Source: Thermophilibacter mediterraneus (lineage in GTDB: Bacteria > Actinomycetota > Coriobacteriia > Coriobacteriales > Atopobiaceae). Taken from it: a DNA stretch of 64,000 nucleotides. The notes below the pieces were generated by a model that did no database searches, had not been told where the DNA came from, and worked only from the letters and a program-made list of their open reading frames with translations. Made by a program: the position numbers and the translations under genes. Shown here piece by piece: positions 5,652-12,438 of the stretch (its first letter is position 1; every line of letters starts with the position of its first letter). The stretch is taken from assembly GCF_900119385.1 (NCBI RefSeq), contig NZ_FPKO01000008.1:1-64000 (forward strand). Direction: 5' to 3'.

Positions 5652-6701
5652 CTAGTACACCATCCCCATTGCCTCGCGGACCTCGTCGAGGGTCGCCGCG
5701 GCGATCTCGCGCGCGCGCCGGTTGCCCTCGTGCAGGACGTCGGCAACGTAGCCCATGTCCTTCTCGATCTCTGCGCGACGCTCTCGGATGGGGGCGAAGT
5801 AGCCGTTCACGGCCTCGGTGACGTACTTCTTGAGCTGCCCGGCGCCGCCCATGCCGATCTCCTCGGCGATCTCGCGCGGGTCTCGCCCGGTGCAGATGCC
5901 GGCGGTGGTGAGCAGGCCGGAGACCTCGGGGCGGCTCTCGGGGTCAAAGGTGATCATGCGCTCCGAGTCGCTCTTGGACTTCTTGATGAGGCGCGCCGTC
6001 TCCTCGGCGGTCATGGAGATGGCGATGGCGTTGCCGTAGGACTTGCTCATCTTGCGCCCGTCGAGGCCCGGGAGCAGGGGCGTGGAGGTGAGAAGGCCCG
6101 TGACCTCCGGGAAGACGCGGCCGTAGCGCTCGTTGAAGCGCCGCGCGATCTTGGAGGTGATCTCGATGTGGGGCAGCTGGTCGCGGCCCACGGGCACGAT
6201 GTTGCCCTTGCAGAAGAGGATGTCGCAGGCCTGGTGCACGGGATAGGTGAGCAGGAGCCCCGTGAGGGCGTGGCCGCTCGCCTCCTGCTCCGCCTTGACG
6301 GTGGGGTTGCGCTCCATCTCTGCCTCGGTCACGAGCGAGAGGAAGGGCAGCATGAGCTGGTTGAGCTCGGGCACCGCCGAGTGCGTGAAGATCATGGTCC
6401 TGGCCGGGTCGACGCCGCACGCCAGGTAGTCGATGACCATGTTGTAGACGTTGTCGCGGATGTGCTCGGTGGTGTCCCGGTCGGTGATGACCTGGTAGTC
6501 CGCGATGATGATGTTGGTGCGAACGCCCATCTCCTGCAGGCGGACGCGGTCCACGAGCGTCCCGAAGTAGTGGCCGAGGTGCAGGCGCCCCGTCGGGCGG
6601 TCGCCCGTGAGCATGGTGTACGCGCCGGGGTTGACGAGAAGGTCGGCGTGGACCTCGTCGCTCCTGCGCTTGGCGGCCTCGTAGCTTCCCTCGTTGGGCA
6701 T
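5652..6701 (-). CDS. trpS: Tryptophanyl-tRNA synthetase
   Basis: This class I aminoacyl-tRNA synthetase charges tRNA-Trp. The 349-residue protein has the HIGH-type motif HLGH (41-44) and a perfect KMSKS (217-221), with the compact length normal for bacterial TrpRS. The start at 6701 (MPNEGSYEAAK) is chosen because AAGGAGGA lies immediately upstream; the frame extends 7 codons further without a better site. It is divergent from the folate cyclo-ligase gene and shares a 145-base intergenic region with it. A TTGACA-like hexamer is present on the minus strand near 6745, but no matching -10. I see no T-box leader. Confidence 0.96.
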   Translation of the reverse strand: MPNEGSYEAAKRRSDEVHADLLVNPGAYTMLTGDRPTGRLHLGHYFGTLVDRVRLQEMGVRTNIIIADYQVITDRDTTEHIRDNVYNMVIDYLACGVDPARTMIFTHSAVPELNQLMLPFLSLVTEAEMERNPTVKAEQEASGHALTGLLLTYPVHQACDILFCKGNIVPVGRDQLPHIEITSKIARRFNERYGRVFPEVTGLLTSTPLLPGLDGRKMSKSYGNAIAISMTAEETARLIKKSKSDSERMITFDPESRPEVSGLLTTAGICTGRDPREIAEEIGMGGAGQLKKYVTEAVNGYFAPIRERRAEIEKDMGYVADVLHEGNRRAREIAAATLDEVREAMGMVY

Positions 6702-6846
6702 GGGTCCTCCTTGCGTGCGCACGCGTGCGCGAAGCCTCGTGGTTGTGTCAACGGTTCCCTATGGTACGGCAATCGGTCCGCTTGTGCACCGAGCGGGCGC
6801 CAAACCCTGTTAAACTGGTGGGGATACGTCGACGAGAGGGGGAGCC

Positions 6847-7449
6847 TTGGCAAGCTCATACGGCACGGACGCCGACAAGAGCTCCCTCAGGAGCAACTAC
6901 CTGCGCGTTCGCCGGACCATCCCCGCCCGCCTCAGGATCTCGTCGGACGATGCCATCCGCTCGACGCTGCGCTCCTTCGGCGTCTTCGCCGACGCGCCCG
7001 TCGTGCTCACCTACGTCTCGTTCGGCGCGGAGGTCGACACGCGCGTCCTCATCGAGGACCTGCTCGAGGAGGGCCGCCGCGTCGCCGTGCCGCTGGTCGA
7101 CCGCGTCGAACGCTCCATGAGCTTCCGCGAGATCTTCTCGCTCGGGGAGCTCGCGCCGGGGACGATGGGCATCCTCGAGCCCGCCCCCGACGCGCCCCGG
7201 CTCACCGTGCCCGAGATGGTGCGCTCGGCGTGCCTCGTCCCCGGCCTCGTCTTCGACGGGTCGGGCCATCGCGTGGGCTACGGCGGGGGGTACTACGACC
7301 GGTTCCTCGCCTTCTACCCCGGCAACAAGATCGGGCTGGCGCGCGTGACGCAGCTCTCGTCGAACCCCCTGCCGGTGGGGGAGCACGACATGCCCATGGA
7401 CTTCCTCGTGAGCGAGGGGTCCGTCTGGGGCTGCCACCCCAACCTGTAG
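6847..7449 (+). CDS. 5-formyltetrahydrofolate cyclo-ligase
   Basis: The enzyme converts 5-formyl-THF to 5,10-methenyl-THF using ATP, returning a stored folate form to the one-carbon pool. The 200-residue protein has the typical ending LVFDGSGHRVGYGGGYYDRF, whose Gly-rich loop binds nucleotide/phosphate, and an early Arg/Lys-rich segment (RVRRTIP). It starts with TTG at 6847, preceded by GAGGGGGAG; no better ATG lies in frame. It is monocistronic and divergent from trpS. Known names for the family are fthC, ygfA and MTHFS. Confidence 0.92.
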   Translation: MASSYGTDADKSSLRSNYLRVRRTIPARLRISSDDAIRSTLRSFGVFADAPVVLTYVSFGAEVDTRVLIEDLLEEGRRVAVPLVDRVERSMSFREIFSLGELAPGTMGILEPAPDAPRLTVPEMVRSACLVPGLVFDGSGHRVGYGGGYYDRFLAFYPGNKIGLARVTQLSSNPLPVGEHDMPMDFLVSEGSVWGCHPNL

Positions 7450-7524: not shown

Positions 7525-8499
7525 CTACAGCCCGAGGTGCGCCGCCATGTCGTGCATGGCCTTGCGGTACCCCTCGACGCCGAGGCCGATGATGGTCTCG
7601 AAGCACGCCGCGCGGATGTAGGAGACCTGGCGGAACTCCTCGCGCTCGGCGACGTTGGAGATGTGGACCTCGATCATGGGCAGGCCGACGGCCTTCGCCG
7701 CGTCGAGGATGGCGATGGACGTGTGCGTGTAGGCACCGGGGTTGATGATGATCCCGGCGTAGGAGCCGTAGGCGTCCTGGATCGCGTCGATGAGGTCTCC
7801 CTCGTGGTTTGACTGGAAGCACGTGCAGTCGGAGAACCCCGCCTCGCGCGCCGCGTCGTGGCAGACGCGCAGCATGGCCTGATAGGTGTCGGTGCCGTAG
7901 ATGTCGGGCTCCCGAATGCCGAGCATGTTGATGTTGGGGCCGTTGATGACGAGCACCCGCGCCGGCGCCGCGCCGCCCGCCGCCCCGCCCCCGTCGGCCG
8001 CCGCGGGCGCGACGGCGGTCTCGTCGTCCTCGTCGAGCGGGGCGACCGGGTCGCCCCCGTCGTCGGAGTCGGCGATGACGTCGAGCAGGCTCACGAGCTC
8101 GTCGACGGAGTCGCCCGCATGGGCCGGGGCCTCGTCGGTGCGGCTCTGCGCGAGCGCGGCGTCGCGCAGAGCGTTCTGCGTGATGTGGACGTGGATGGGC
8201 GCGTTGGCCCCGCTGCCGAGGTCGTCGAACGCGTCGTCCGCCCCCTCGATGCCGGTGAGCCTCACGAGCGCCTCGTGCACCGCCTCGACCTTGCCCGGGC
8301 CGAACACGACCTCGATGCCGTTGGAGCCGCGCTTTACGAAGCCCAGGACGCCGCGGGCGGCGGAGAGCTGGTCGGTGTCGACGAGGGCGGGGTCCTGGGT
8401 GAGGATGCGCAGGCGGGTCATGCAGATGTCGTTGGCCGTCACGTTGTCCCGGCCGCCCACCGCCGCGAGGACCTCCTCGGCAATCTGATCTCTGTCCAC
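7525..8499 (-). CDS. aroQ: PTS EIIB-domain / type II 3-dehydroquinate dehydratase fusion
   Basis: The C-terminal 144 residues (181-324) are a complete AroQ, which turns 3-dehydroquinate into 3-dehydroshikimate: NGPNINMLGIREPDIYG, FQSNHEGDLID, INPGAYTHTS and EVHISN are all present. Residues 1-75 resemble a glucose-family PTS EIIB domain, with Cys26 in the phosphorylation-site motif CMTRLR and a following LGFVKRGSNGIEVVFG. About 100 Ala/Asp/Gly-rich residues link them. No EIIC or EIIA is nearby. The GTG at 8499 has AGGAAGG 8 bases upstream; the frame extends to 8625 without similarity. It follows aroEK on the same strand after a 183-base gap with its own -10-like TATACT, and supplies the one shikimate step missing from the operon upstream. 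Confidence 0.9.
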   Translation of the reverse strand: MDRDQIAEEVLAAVGGRDNVTANDICMTRLRILTQDPALVDTDQLSAARGVLGFVKRGSNGIEVVFGPGKVEAVHEALVRLTGIEGADDAFDDLGSGANAPIHVHITQNALRDAALAQSRTDEAPAHAGDSVDELVSLLDVIADSDDGGDPVAPLDEDDETAVAPAAADGGGAAGGAAPARVLVINGPNINMLGIREPDIYGTDTYQAMLRVCHDAAREAGFSDCTCFQSNHEGDLIDAIQDAYGSYAGIIINPGAYTHTSIAILDAAKAVGLPMIEVHISNVAEREEFRQVSYIRAACFETIIGLGVEGYRKAMHDMAAHLGL

Positions 8500-8591
8500 G
8501 TCGCGACCCTTCCTGTCGTCGAATCGCGAGCGTGGGAGCCCCGTCTCCGCACTCAACGCATGCTCGACCCGTCGTTGCTGTCTGATGTGAC

Positions 8592-8620
8592 AGTATACGG
8601 GGTGCCCCTCCTCGGCACGT
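8592..8620 (-). promoter_or_regulatory. Possible promoter for the EIIB-aroQ gene
   Basis: The minus strand reads TATACT at 8597-8592, a near-consensus -10, about 90 bases before the GTG start. The -35 position has no good match. It lies in a 183-base gap between aroEK and aroQ, so separate transcription of the fusion gene is plausible but unproven. Confidence 0.35.
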
Positions 8621-8682
8621 CCCACTCCGCGAGCGGCGTCGTGGGCGGCGTCCGGACACGCACGCGCGCCCGGACGCGCGCG

Positions 8683-9990
8683 TCAGAGCGCGCCGAGAAG
8701 CCCCGCGATCTTCTCGGCGTCCCCCGCGGCAGATCCCGTGCACTCGACCGTGACGTCCGCCCACGCGCGGTAGAGCGGGAGCCGCTCGCGGGCGAGCTCC
8801 TCGATGCCCCGGCGCTGTGAGACGGGGCGCCCCTCGCTGCTGAGCTCGGAGGTCGGCCGGTCGAGAAAGACTATCGTCGCGTTCTGGCGGAGCAGGTCGC
8901 GGTTCTCCTCACGGGTGACGACGCCGCCGCCGCACGCGATGACGAGGCCCGACCTCGCGGCGTAGCGGCCCGTGAGCTCCGTCTCAACCCTGCGGAAGCT
9001 GTCCTCGCCGTCACGCTCGATGATCTCGGCCGCGCTTCGGCCGGTCTCGGTGCGCACCGCCTCGTCGATGTCGACGAAGGGGCGGCCGAGCAGACGCGCG
9101 AGGCGCCGCCCGCAGCTCGTCTTGCCCGCGCCCGGCATGCCGATGAGCGCGACGCTCTGCGTCTGCGCGGTGATCGCGGCCTCGATCTTGGGCACGAGCG
9201 CGTCGTCGAGCTCGCGTCCCTGGAAGAGCTCGCTCGCGTAGAGGGCCTGCGCCACGAGCATGGCGAGACCGGACTCGGCCGGGATCCCCAGGCGCTCCGC
9301 CAGGAGCACGAGCCCCGTGCGGCGGGGGTTGTAGACGATGTCGAGGACGCCGAGCAGGGCGCGCAGCGAGACGAGGCACCCCTCGTCGACCGGCGTCGCC
9401 GGGCAGGCGGGGTACATGCCCACCGGCGTCGCGTTGACGAGAAGGACGGCGCCGGCGTGGCGCTGCGCGAGGGTGGTGTAGGTGTCGTCCCCGGTCCGGG
9501 AGATGAGGCTCACGCGCGCGCCCGCGTGCTCCTCGAGCGCGTAGGCGACGGCCTGGGCGGCACCGCCCGTGCCGAGCACGACCGCCTCGCGTCCGTCGAG
9601 GAGCTCGCGCGGCGAGCCGCCCAGGCGCTCGCGGCAGAAGCGCGCGAGCATCCAGGTGAACCCGAGCACGTCGGTGTTCTCGGCGACGACGGAACCGTCC
9701 TCGGCGCGCACGAGCGTGTTGGCCGCGCCGAGCCGCTCCACCGCGGCCGAGCGCACGTCGGCGAGCATCGCGGCGTCGCGCTTGTAGGGGATGGTCACGT
9801 TGAGCCCGCGCCAGGCCCCGTCGCGAACGAGGGGAGCGACCTCGTCAGGCTCGAGCTCGACGAGGTCGTAGGGCGCCGAGCCGAGGCGCTCGTGGATCTG
9901 CCGCGACCAGCTGTGCCCGAGCTTGCGCCCGAGCAGGCCGAACTCGGCGCCGCCGCTCAGCCCCGCCCTGCCCCGCTCCCGCGCCGTCAT
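8683..9990 (-). CDS. aroE: Bifunctional shikimate dehydrogenase / shikimate kinase
   Basis: This 435-residue fusion carries two consecutive shikimate steps. Residues 17-270 are shikimate dehydrogenase, with the NVTIPYK substrate motif (catalytic K70), ENTD (D107) and a nucleotide-binding GTGGAA (140-145). Residues about 278-435 are shikimate kinase (AroK/AroL), with P-loop GMPGAGKT (284-291), DIDEAV and CGGGVVTREENR. Each part is close to normal family length, so both should be active. The ATG at 9990 overlaps the pheA stop by one base (TGATG), indicating translational coupling. It is the last gene of the tight aro operon. Fusions of AroE with other aro enzymes are known; AroE-AroK is less usual. 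Confidence 0.93.
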   Translation of the reverse strand: MTARERGRAGLSGGAEFGLLGRKLGHSWSRQIHERLGSAPYDLVELEPDEVAPLVRDGAWRGLNVTIPYKRDAAMLADVRSAAVERLGAANTLVRAEDGSVVAENTDVLGFTWMLARFCRERLGGSPRELLDGREAVVLGTGGAAQAVAYALEEHAGARVSLISRTGDDTYTTLAQRHAGAVLLVNATPVGMYPACPATPVDEGCLVSLRALLGVLDIVYNPRRTGLVLLAERLGIPAESGLAMLVAQALYASELFQGRELDDALVPKIEAAITAQTQSVALIGMPGAGKTSCGRRLARLLGRPFVDIDEAVRTETGRSAAEIIERDGEDSFRRVETELTGRYAARSGLVIACGGGVVTREENRDLLRQNATIVFLDRPTSELSSEGRPVSQRRGIEELARERLPLYRAWADVTVECTGSAAGDAEKIAGLLGAL

Positions 9991-11141
9991 CACAGCACCT
10001 CCGAGTAGCAGCCGAGGAGCCGGACGTCCTGGCAGACCCCGCCGATGCTCCCGAGCAGCGACGCGAGCTCGGGCGAGGCAGCCGGGCAGGCGACGTCGAA
10101 GTAGAACATGAACTCGAAGTCGCGCTCGGGTATGGGGCGGCTCTCGAGCTTGAGGAGGTTGATGTCGAGCGCGTAGAACTTGGCGAGCAGCTTGTAGAGC
10201 GTGCCGGGCTCGTGCGGGAGCACGATCATGAGCGACGCCCGGTCCGCCCCGGGGTAGATCTCGAGGTCGCGGGAGATGCAGGCGAACCGCGTGTAGTTGT
10301 TGTCGCGGTCCTGGACCGAGGACGAGAGCGTCGCGAGGCCGTAGAGCCCCGCGCAGGCGCTCGAGGCGAGCGCGGCGACGTCCCGGCGGCCCGACTCGGC
10401 GACGCTGCGCGCGGCGACGGCCGTGTTCTCGCAGACGTGCACCGTGACGTCGGGCAGGCCCGAGAGGAACTCTGCGCACTGGTTGATGGCCTGCTCGTGG
10501 CTGTAGATCTCGCGGACGGTCTCGAGGCGCGCGCCCGGCGCGGCGAGCAGGCTGTGGTCGACCTTGACGCGCGTGGTGCGGACGACGTAGAACGAGTGCT
10601 CGCGCATGAGGTCGAAGACCTGGTTGACCGAGCCCGCCGTCGAGTTCTCGAGCGGGAGCACGCCGTAGTCCGCGGCACCCTGCTCAACGGAGCGGAAGAC
10701 GGCGTCGAAGGTGGGCGCGAAGCTGATGGTGGGCCTGCGGAAGATCCGCTCGGCGGCGATCTGCGAGTAGGCGCCCTCGGTTCCCTGGCAGGCGACGTGG
10801 GCCGACCGGGGGAAGAGCTCGGGCGTCGCGGCGCGCGCGGCCGCGACGGCGCCGCGGAGCCCGTCGGGGGCGTCGTCGCCGAGAAGGGCGTGCTGCCGCG
10901 AGCGGGACGCCTCCATGAGGAGCTCCATCAGCACCTGGGCGTAGGTGGCAAGGTCCTCCGGCGCGCGCCGGGCCGCGTCGGCGACCTTCGCTCGCTCGCG
11001 CGCGGGGTCGAAGACGCGCATGCCGTGCTCGCGCTTGTAGGCGGCGACCCCCTCCGAGACGCGCCCGCGCTCGGCGAAGAGGCGGAAGATCTCCGCGTCG
11101 ATCTCGTCTATCTGCTGTCTCAGCTCGGAGAGCTCAGCCAT
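9990..11141 (-). CDS. pheA: Chorismate mutase / prephenate dehydratase (P-protein)
   Basis: The enzyme converts chorismate to prephenate and then phenylpyruvate, committing to phenylalanine. In 383 residues the order is: N-terminal AroQ-class chorismate mutase helix bundle (1-85, LRQQIDEIDAEIFRLFAERG), prephenate dehydratase (about 110-290, with CQGTEGAYSQIA, ENSTAGSVNQV and the catalytic NNYTRF), then an ACT regulatory domain with ESRP. The ACT domain suggests phenylalanine feedback. AGGAAGGA precedes the ATG at 11141. A 178-base gap with strong nested inverted repeats separates it from aroC upstream, and its stop overlaps the aroEK start by one base. Confidence 0.95.
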   Translation of the reverse strand: MAELSELRQQIDEIDAEIFRLFAERGRVSEGVAAYKREHGMRVFDPARERAKVADAARRAPEDLATYAQVLMELLMEASRSRQHALLGDDAPDGLRGAVAAARAATPELFPRSAHVACQGTEGAYSQIAAERIFRRPTISFAPTFDAVFRSVEQGAADYGVLPLENSTAGSVNQVFDLMREHSFYVVRTTRVKVDHSLLAAPGARLETVREIYSHEQAINQCAEFLSGLPDVTVHVCENTAVAARSVAESGRRDVAALASSACAGLYGLATLSSSVQDRDNNYTRFACISRDLEIYPGADRASLMIVLPHEPGTLYKLLAKFYALDINLLKLESRPIPERDFEFMFYFDVACPAASPELASLLGSIGGVCQDVRLLGCYSEVL

Positions 11142-11319: not shown

Positions 11320-12438
11320 TCACTCCTGCGGCGGCCAGGCGAGAAGCGCGTCGGCCACGGCGAGCGCGCAGACGGCCTCGACCACGGGGACGGCGCGGAT
11401 CACGGCGGTGGTGTCGTGGCGACCGTGGACGCGCAGCGTCGCGGGCTCCATGGTCGAGAGGTCGACGGAGCGCTGGTCGACCATCACGCTCGAGATGGGC
11501 TTGAGGGCGCAGCGCACGAGCAGCGGGGCGCCGGTGGTGATGCCGCCCAGGATGCCGCCGGCGTTGTTGGTCACGGGGACGCACGAGCCGTCTCTGACCT
11601 CGTAGGGGTCGTTGTTCTGGGTGCCGCGCAGGCGCGCGGCGGCGAAGCCCCTGCCGAACTCGACCCCCTTCACCGAGGGGACGCCGAAGAGCGCGCGGGC
11701 GATCACGTTCTCCATGCCGTCGAACATCGGCGACCCGACGCCGGCGGGGAGGCCGCACGCCACGCACTCGACGATGCCGCCCACGGTGTCCCGCTCCGAG
11801 CGCGCCGCCATGACGGCGTCGACCATGCGCGCCCCGGCAGCCTCGTCGACGACGGGGACGCGCCTGCCGTCGGCGAGCGCCGCAAGCTGCGCGGCGAGGG
11901 CGCGGGAGGCCTCGGGCGAGTTGTCGAGCGCCGCGAGCGGCTCGTCCTCGATGCCCGCGAGCTCCGCCACGTGCGCGCGCACGGTGACCCCCCTCGTGCG
12001 GAGCCACTGGAGGGCGATGCCGCCCGCCACGCACAGGGGCCCGGTGAGGCGCCCGGAGAAGTGCCCCCCGCCGGGGACGTCCTGCTCGCCGTGCCACTTC
12101 GCCCACGCGGTGAAGTCGGCGTGTCCGGGCCGCGGCACCTCGAGGATGTTGCCGTAGTCGGCGGAGCGGGTGTTGGTGTTCTCTATCAGCGCGGCGAGCG
12201 GCGCCCCGCAGGTGCGGCCCTCGGGGTTGAGGCCCGAGACGACGCGCACCGCGTCGGGCTCGCGCCGCGGCGTCGACCACGGGTCGCGCCCCGGGGCGCG
12301 ACGCTCGACGAAGGCCGAGAGCTCCTCGAGGTCGACGGGCATCCCCGCGGGGAGCCCCTCGACCACGCAGCCGACGGCGGGGGAGTGGGACTGGCCGAAC
12401 ACGGTGACCCTGAGGGCGGTGCCAATGGATGAGGGCAT
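11320..12438 (-). CDS. aroC: Chorismate synthase
   Basis: The enzyme eliminates phosphate from EPSP to give chorismate using reduced FMN. The 372-residue protein shows the family signatures GQSHSPAVGCVVEGLPAG near the N-terminus, the RSERDTVGGI block and GRHDTTAVIRAVPVVEA near the end. Length is normal. The ATG at 12438 overlaps the aroA stop by one base (TGATG). A long upstream extension of the frame lies inside aroA and is not coding. Confidence 0.96.
   Translation of the reverse strand: MPSSIGTALRVTVFGQSHSPAVGCVVEGLPAGMPVDLEELSAFVERRAPGRDPWSTPRREPDAVRVVSGLNPEGRTCGAPLAALIENTNTRSADYGNILEVPRPGHADFTAWAKWHGEQDVPGGGHFSGRLTGPLCVAGGIALQWLRTRGVTVRAHVAELAGIEDEPLAALDNSPEASRALAAQLAALADGRRVPVVDEAAGARMVDAVMAARSERDTVGGIVECVACGLPAGVGSPMFDGMENVIARALFGVPSVKGVEFGRGFAAARLRGTQNNDPYEVRDGSCVPVTNNAGGILGGITTGAPLLVRCALKPISSVMVDQRSVDLSTMEPATLRVHGRHDTTAVIRAVPVVEAVCALAVADALLAWPPQE

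Follow-up and report, generated by a model that had tools for sequence, protein, structure and literature searches.

The window analyzed here, a stretch of 64,000 nucleotides from Thermophilibacter mediterraneus (Atopobiaceae), carries on its minus strand a gene in which a glucose-family EIIB domain of the sugar phosphotransferase system (PTS) is joined through a linker to AroQ, a 3-dehydroquinate dehydratase of the shikimate pathway. The gene and its surroundings read as follows:

7525-8499, minus strand: EIIB-linker-AroQ fusion gene, 324 aa, GTG start, Shine-Dalgarno sequence AGGAAGGG at 8507-8514
8248-8499, minus strand: glucose-family PTS EIIB domain, residues 1-84 (PF00367, IIBGlc in the PDB, AlphaFold)
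8422-8424, minus strand: codon of Cys26 in the motif CMTRLR, the expected phospho-acceptor, invariant in 107/107 proteins
8146-8196, minus strand: linker motif 1 (IHVHIT... in the window, often VxI[ST]P... in relatives), from alignments
8071-8112, minus strand: linker motif 2, an amphipathic acidic helix, LxxLL-like, from a crude regular expression and AlphaFold
7528-7959, minus strand: AroQ, type II 3-dehydroquinate dehydratase, residues 181-324 (PF01220, fold of 8idu, active-site residues)
8592-8597, minus strand: TATACT, a -10-like hexamer of a putative promoter between aroE-aroK and the fusion gene, from the conservation of CGTATACT
8683-10479, minus strand: fused aroE-aroK, the 5' neighbour (open reading frame as listed, real start inside it; named by eye)
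9990-11141, minus strand: pheA-like chorismate mutase/prephenate dehydratase (named by eye; order conserved in most relatives)
11341-12414, minus strand: aroC, chorismate synthase (PF01264 match)

Both ends of the protein are recognized significantly. In Pfam, PF00367 matches residues 8-41 with 40.9 bits against a cut-off of 27 (E 1.3e-10) and PF01220 matches residues 181-318 with 186 bits (E 2.8e-55); these are the only two domains, with no EIIC, DNA-binding or PRD domain, and the coordinates, strand and domain order of the original prediction were right. The sucrose IIBC profile of NCBIfam also matches residues 3-86 (E 3.9e-16), with a score far under the cut-off of that whole-protein model, as expected for a single domain, and the AroQ profile TIGR01088 passes its own cut-off. 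By sequence, the EIIB part matches the E. coli IIBGlc entries 3bp3, 1o2f, 1iba and 3bp8 of the PDB (E about 1e-7), which makes IIBGlc the closest solved domain, and the AroQ part matches the Corynebacterium glutamicum dehydroquinase 8idr/8idu, with a fold match to 8idu of TM 0.96. The AlphaFold model has ten-residue confidence means of 88-97 over residues 1-90 and of 86-98 over residues 181-324, the lid at 191-200 being at 69, and low confidence over the connecting linker of ~96 residues, including the helix that it places in motif 2 (residues 132-143). The AroQ domain is complete, as had been claimed, with R19, Y24, N75, H81, E99, H101 and R112 all intact; these seven scored residues are in C. 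glutamicum/M. tuberculosis numbering (N12 was not scored singly), and their roles are taken from PMC10772564.

Translation begins upstream of the EIIB part, at a GTG (8497-8499) preceded by the Shine-Dalgarno sequence 7 nt to its 5' side, and this GTG and the Shine-Dalgarno region are kept in the window and its 10 closest aligned relatives. We can therefore reject a chance match or a wrongly called start, since the Shine-Dalgarno sequence and start are conserved and the dN/dS of the EIIB part is low. Further 5', all 11 sequences compared, that of the window among them, have CGTATACT unchanged, and beyond TATACT lies a partly conserved GC-rich block (8622-8648, minus strand) seen in the window and 10 relatives. 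From these two elements and the near-invariant Shine-Dalgarno region, the fusion gene probably has its own promoter: TATACT and the GC-rich block form a probable dedicated promoter and perhaps an operator too. No sigma-70 pair turned up when the region upstream of the fusion gene was scanned with a consensus. With as many as 3 mismatches allowed, the consensus of the upstream block matched nowhere in the window, not even at the window's own diverged copy, and a shortened pattern gave 7 sites against 3.1 expected; after these two scans we rejected a conserved operator common to other genes. Near-invariant TCGCGA repeats flank the Shine-Dalgarno region (8500-8530, minus strand) and could form a hairpin that covers it; the variation in them is too small for covariation evidence, and the RNA leader, for which one relative was folded, folds no better than its shuffles (z -0.09).

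To determine how widely the gene occurs we searched 140 Atopobiaceae genomes, assigned to the family by the named relatives among them, with an alignment of 32 fusions. The EIIB gene is found in 132 of them, with AroQ attached in 127 and as EIIB without AroQ in 5; four of the 127 are interrupted, by an in-frame deletion (G035), a frame break (G037), a split over two contigs (G081) or an unmatched N-terminus (G110). The occurrence follows chorismate synthase closely: the gene is present in 132 of the 135 genomes with aroC and in none of the five without it (G008, G009, G010, G030 and G138, where neither this EIIB nor AroQ was found), even though all five of the latter carry some PF00367 match. 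For G138 the absence rests on score, its best match at E 6.6e-25 being near the range of transport EIIBs, which among the matches listed reach down to E 3.4e-28 in frames of about 500 aa. In the three genomes that have aroC and lack the gene (G011, G053, G082) the aroC contig stops inside aroEK, pheA or aroC, before the position of the EIIB gene, and no AroQ or AroD was found in the rest of these assemblies. With the only misses at contig ends, the EIIB gene thus follows the aro pathway.

Outside the family the picture is different. A fusion shared across the Coriobacteriia is unsupported, since full-length matches were seen in Atopobiaceae only: among the matches listed, the 255 genomes of the order outside the family (395 genomes in total) gave no full-length one, none of them scoring better than E 3.2e-82, and the 24 matches listed from them all begin at profile position 111 or beyond, so that among the matches listed the EIIB part is missed. 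Beyond those 24 matches, a fusion split into two weak pieces may still occur outside the family. Similarly, 48 further loci (L036-L083), most of them from Collinsella, Slackia and Firmicutes, are without an EIIB match, and in 41 of the 48 aroEK and AroQ run in the same direction; one of the 48 (L040) starts where its contig does and may be a truncated member of the Atopobiaceae.

Within the family, many loci were seen directly to have the order aroC-pheA-aroEK-EIIB, and the upstream order pheA, aroE-aroK is that of most relatives. The EIIB gene and aroC share a contig in 122 of the 132 genomes and lie on different contigs in the other 10; in 118 of the 122 the EIIB gene follows aroC in the same direction and within 5.6 kb, including all five genomes with EIIB only, while in G078 the two are 13.5 kb apart. 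A single open reading frame (8683-10479, minus strand) encodes shikimate dehydrogenase together with shikimate kinase, and one query matched it over the full length in relatives. In G004, G016 and G033, and likewise at L034, the EIIB-AroQ gene adjoins the aro genes but is read from the other strand; it must be transcribed separately in those three genomes. In G067 and G072 about 3 kb is inserted between aroEK and the EIIB gene (L130:1600-4800, with a matching gap at L134), and by eye the insert in L130 holds an open reading frame resembling an X-prolyl dipeptidyl peptidase. Given this insert and the probable promoter of the fusion gene, co-transcription with the aro genes is not assured. On the other side of the fusion gene, 5652-7449 holds a convergent frame resembling 5-formyltetrahydrofolate cyclo-ligase and a frame resembling trpS (named by eye), in the same order as at L101.

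We read 107 of the 132 proteins residue by residue, the window's included. Cys26, T28, R29, L30, R31, G15, G16 and N19 are identical in all 107, so the expected phospho-acceptor Cys has been kept throughout, and E63 is present in 106 (the other has Asp). The linker motifs are looser: crude regular expressions match motif 1 in 75 of the 107 proteins, among them all five EIIB-only proteins, and motif 2 in 99. In the EIIB-only proteins motif 2 comes close to the C-terminal end. A PGR sequence found in 18 of the 107 linkers resembles the KTPGRED of PtsG (PMC3901232), and we rejected a relationship, as it lies on the opposite side of the EIIB domain and is probably a coincidence.

The fate of AroQ in two genera separates the two halves of the fusion. 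The seven scored AroQ positions are complete in 81 of the 107 proteins, damaged or lost with the domain in 25, and unreadable in one (G037, whose frame break beside an unresolved base places it outside the count; G035, in which the in-frame deletion leaves the seven residues present, is counted as intact). Damage is found in 20 genomes, namely all 16 of genus g31 and four of genus g35 (G129, G130, G132, G133), and in five more, the EIIB-only genomes G122, G131, G135, G137 and G139, AroQ is deleted. In G130 and G132 only R19 of the seven is affected, and the R19A substitution abolishes the activity of C. glutamicum AroQ according to PMC10772564. The losses go together with the presence of AroD (PF01487), the type I dehydroquinase that is unrelated to AroQ: AroD occurs in 24 of the 140 genomes (15 of 16 in g31, 9 of 18 in g35), that is, in 23 of the 25 with a damaged or missing AroQ versus 1 of the 81 with a complete one (G126). 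The two exceptions among the 25 are the incomplete genomes G071 (77% complete) and G139 (73%). Conversely, the seven residues are intact in 80 of the 83 AroD-less genomes read, the remainder being G071, G139 and the unreadable G037. Fisher's p for this association is 6e-20, which given the relatedness of the genomes is a description and no test; the counts are not independent, as two genera, with perhaps two or three gains, underlie the pattern. In the six AroD proteins inspected, a His motif like YHDF/HHDF/NHDF is retained along with PKLAVMA, the motif of the functional Lys. AroD is likely the replacement dehydroquinase where AroQ is damaged or absent.

The EIIB-only proteins, of 145-162 aa, consist of EIIB and linker and end soon after linker motif 2. 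None of the five genomes has a PF01220 match anywhere, and no AroQ DNA was found in the stretches examined (L098 ends 0.4 kb past the gene). All five keep the order aroC-pheA-aroEK-EIIB, and in G131 the upstream frames read by eye as aroF, tyrA, aroB and aroA. A tree built from aroC, pheA and aroEK puts the EIIB-only genomes at two, probably three, separate positions among relatives that keep AroQ, with low support at one node that separates them; in this tree L033 and L035 have zero branch length to G068 and G071, whose sequences they duplicate. The counts leave out the 200-base dummy stretch L151 of G030.

Where AroQ is dead or gone, the EIIB part remains under purifying selection. The Nei-Gojobori dN/dS of EIIB comes to 0.02-0.03 between the EIIB-only genomes G131, G135 and G139, and EIIB-only pairs that lie further apart give 0.08-0.14. 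For g31, values of 0.04-0.06 were obtained with the close pairs G064/G076, G065/G077 and G067/G072, and values of 0.14-0.21 with distant pairs of usable dS; saturation is reached or nearly reached in several distant pairs. Over every pair with usable dS, the dN/dS of EIIB is 0.00-0.25. Because EIIB and linker are kept in this way where AroQ is damaged or deleted, the job of EIIB needs no AroQ catalysis, and its persistence beside the aro genes suggests a control device rather than a passenger.

The loci of g31 (L103-L110, L128-L135) encode an AroQ that lacks catalytic residues and is itself still under purifying selection, with dN/dS of 0.06-0.12 in the same three close pairs. These values lead us to reject plain decay of the dead AroQ in this genus and argue that some non-catalytic role is kept there; the domain looks like a conserved pseudoenzyme and not debris. 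AlphaFold predicts its fold confidently except for the lid, which is weak evidence because the underlying alignment contains intact relatives.

As originally noted, the aro genes seen have no EIIA or EIIC nearby. T. mediterraneus has four PF00358 EIIAs in other places, two of them small and outside EIIBCA genes, and two other PF00367 EIIBs. The loci L096 and L097 (C6:535116 and C6:387066 of the same genome) hold two different small EIIAs with the active-site His motif, and no EIIBC frame was recognized by eye in these 3.4-kb stretches. Across the Atopobiaceae, EIIA is found in 134 of the 140 genomes and HPr in 135. Of 25 EIIA loci scanned for the active-site HxG motif, 24 have it, and L229 has none with that pattern. 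In 12 genomes (92-100% complete) PF00367 matches nothing but the aro EIIB; each of the 12 has HPr and 1-3 EIIAs, at least one of them in an open frame of less than 300 aa. Two of these, G059 and G060, each assembled in one contig, have one EIIA to one EIIB, the EIIA of G059 being a free protein of 155 aa. The EIIA link is a co-occurrence in 134 of 140 genomes, with G075 (98% complete) as an exception that keeps HPr and the EIIB Cys and has no PF00358 match. Enzyme I (PF02896) was looked for in 16 of the 140 genomes; the sole match in G075 is in a frame of 958 aa, the size of PPDK rather than of EI, which reflects either an assembly gap or that phosphorylation is dispensable there. No EI-sized match, EIIA or HPr was found in G139, and HPr was not found in G013 (91% complete) and G101 (85%), both of which keep the EIIB gene.

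The EIIB of the fusion shares its family, its fold and the CxTRLR motif with the IIBGlc domain of E. coli PtsG. It differs in having no EIIC in cis, in being fused to a shikimate enzyme or free, in standing beside aro genes, and in residue 63, which is Glu here and Gln both in IIBGlc and in one transport EIIB of the same genome. The absence of EIIC from the protein, together with aroEK, pheA and aroC on one side, identifies it as an EIIB domain and not a transport EIIBC. PRD-type regulators (MtlR and others) use EIIB-like domains as phospho-sensors, unlike the fusion protein in carrying the DNA-binding or PRD domains that Pfam fails to find here. Another parallel is the NCBIfam entry PRK14905, a triosephosphate isomerase/PTS EIIB fusion that likewise combines a central-metabolism enzyme with a glucose/sucrose-type EIIB; only its EIIB part (profile positions 277-352 of 357) matches ours, its EIIB is C-terminal and its enzyme different, Pfam finding AroQ and no triosephosphate isomerase in the fusion. 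To our knowledge PRK14905 has no assigned function. The C. glutamicum AroQ (8idr/8idu), in turn, corresponds to the whole AroQ domain including the active-site residues, and the AroQ proteins of the Collinsella, Slackia and Firmicutes loci examined have no EIIB, unlike the fusion.

With the identity, distribution and conservation of the domain and its independence from AroQ catalysis established by these comparisons, we consider it probable that EIIB and linker form a PTS-coupled signalling module of the Atopobiaceae shikimate pathway, with AroQ as the enzyme that carries EIIB. Aromatic synthesis spends PEP at two steps, and PTS uptake and the shikimate pathway compete for it. A link between this EIIB and PEP or sugar status is plausible. 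Free EIIA~P would phosphorylate Cys26, whose level of phosphorylation would then report PEP and sugar-uptake status. The phosphorylation state could alter how EIIB and the two linker motifs bind a partner, for which dephosphorylated EIICBGlc, which binds Mlc and SgrT, provides a precedent of an EIIB protein whose phosphorylation state controls protein binding (PMC3901232). The partner would most likely be another Aro enzyme or a regulator of the aro cluster, and the outcome an adjustment of aromatic synthesis. Fusion to AroQ, a dodecamer in C. glutamicum (PMC10772564), would display many copies of EIIB but is not essential, and AroQ and EIIB may profit from each other, since AroQ is present in 127 of the 132. 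A more specific version, which we put forward tentatively and at somewhat less than an even chance, is a dedicated line from free EIIA to the aro-cluster EIIB and from there, in trans and via the two linker motifs, to an Aro enzyme or to expression of the cluster, with AroQ as an exchangeable carrier, free to turn into a pseudoenzyme scaffold or to vanish.

Of the three results named beforehand as refuting the original prediction (no significant EIIB match, loss of the Cys in relatives, a start downstream of EIIB), none was observed. That prediction implied that EIIB regulates the AroQ attached to it, and a direct tuning of the activity or assembly of AroQ by EIIB, phosphorylated or not, would fit both the joint occurrence in 127 of the 132 genomes and the intact active sites in 80 of the 83 AroD-less genomes read. 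EIIB and linker, however, outlast damage to AroQ in 20 genomes and its deletion in five, so regulation of the attached enzyme cannot be the whole story or the sole function of EIIB, and as an explanation we find it unlikely. We rate somewhat lower a structural or docking role, for instance in gathering pathway enzymes, in which Cys26 is unphosphorylated and is conserved for the sake of the fold or of redox chemistry. Both conserved linker motifs do resemble docking peptides, and G075 keeps EIIB without detectable EI and EIIA; however, it is the whole CxTRLR that is invariant and not Cys alone, EIIA and HPr are present in 134 and 135 of the 140 genomes, and EIIA is kept where the aro EIIB is the only one.

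That last group, together with the complete CxTRLR motif, would also suit an ordinary transport subunit acting in trans for EIIC permeases that have no EIIB of their own. Such a subunit would not be expected to be tied to aro genes or to be missing from all five aroC-less genomes, which do have a PF00367 EIIB, and we regard this reading as less probable again than a docking role. Finally, the domain had been proposed as a possible relic, and a functionless neutral leftover of a fusion event is contradicted by the motif being unchanged in 107 of 107 proteins, by EIIB dN/dS of 0.00-0.25 and by the retention of EIIB after deletion of AroQ, which makes it very improbable. We thus favour the signalling module.

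If a signalling module is what this domain is, it would be the first EIIB whose job is the control of an amino-acid pathway instead of sugar transport or the control of a sugar operon; we know of no other with such a job, nor of a direct protein link between PTS and shikimate pathway. A search of open-access literature found no such link, and no report of an EIIB-AroQ fusion was found in the literature searched, which was mostly open access. Atopobiaceae are bacteria of gut and mouth, and what they carry within an aromatic amino acid gene cluster is a domain like a sugar-uptake switch; the hypothesis is testable in culturable human-associated bacteria. The family also provides a natural control experiment, in that with a second dehydroquinase present AroQ is damaged or gone while EIIB and linker stay: a clean case of a fused domain outliving its enzyme, with a conserved pseudo-AroQ in addition. 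The latter has a counterpart in Candida albicans Aro1, where, according to PMC9074039, an inactive type I dehydroquinase domain is compensated by the type II enzyme Dqd1. In both, a dehydroquinase domain is kept in a multidomain protein after catalysis is lost. The Atopobiaceae are the mirror image of that case, with the type II enzyme damaged, type I AroD as its likely replacement, and a PTS EIIB as the partner in the fusion.
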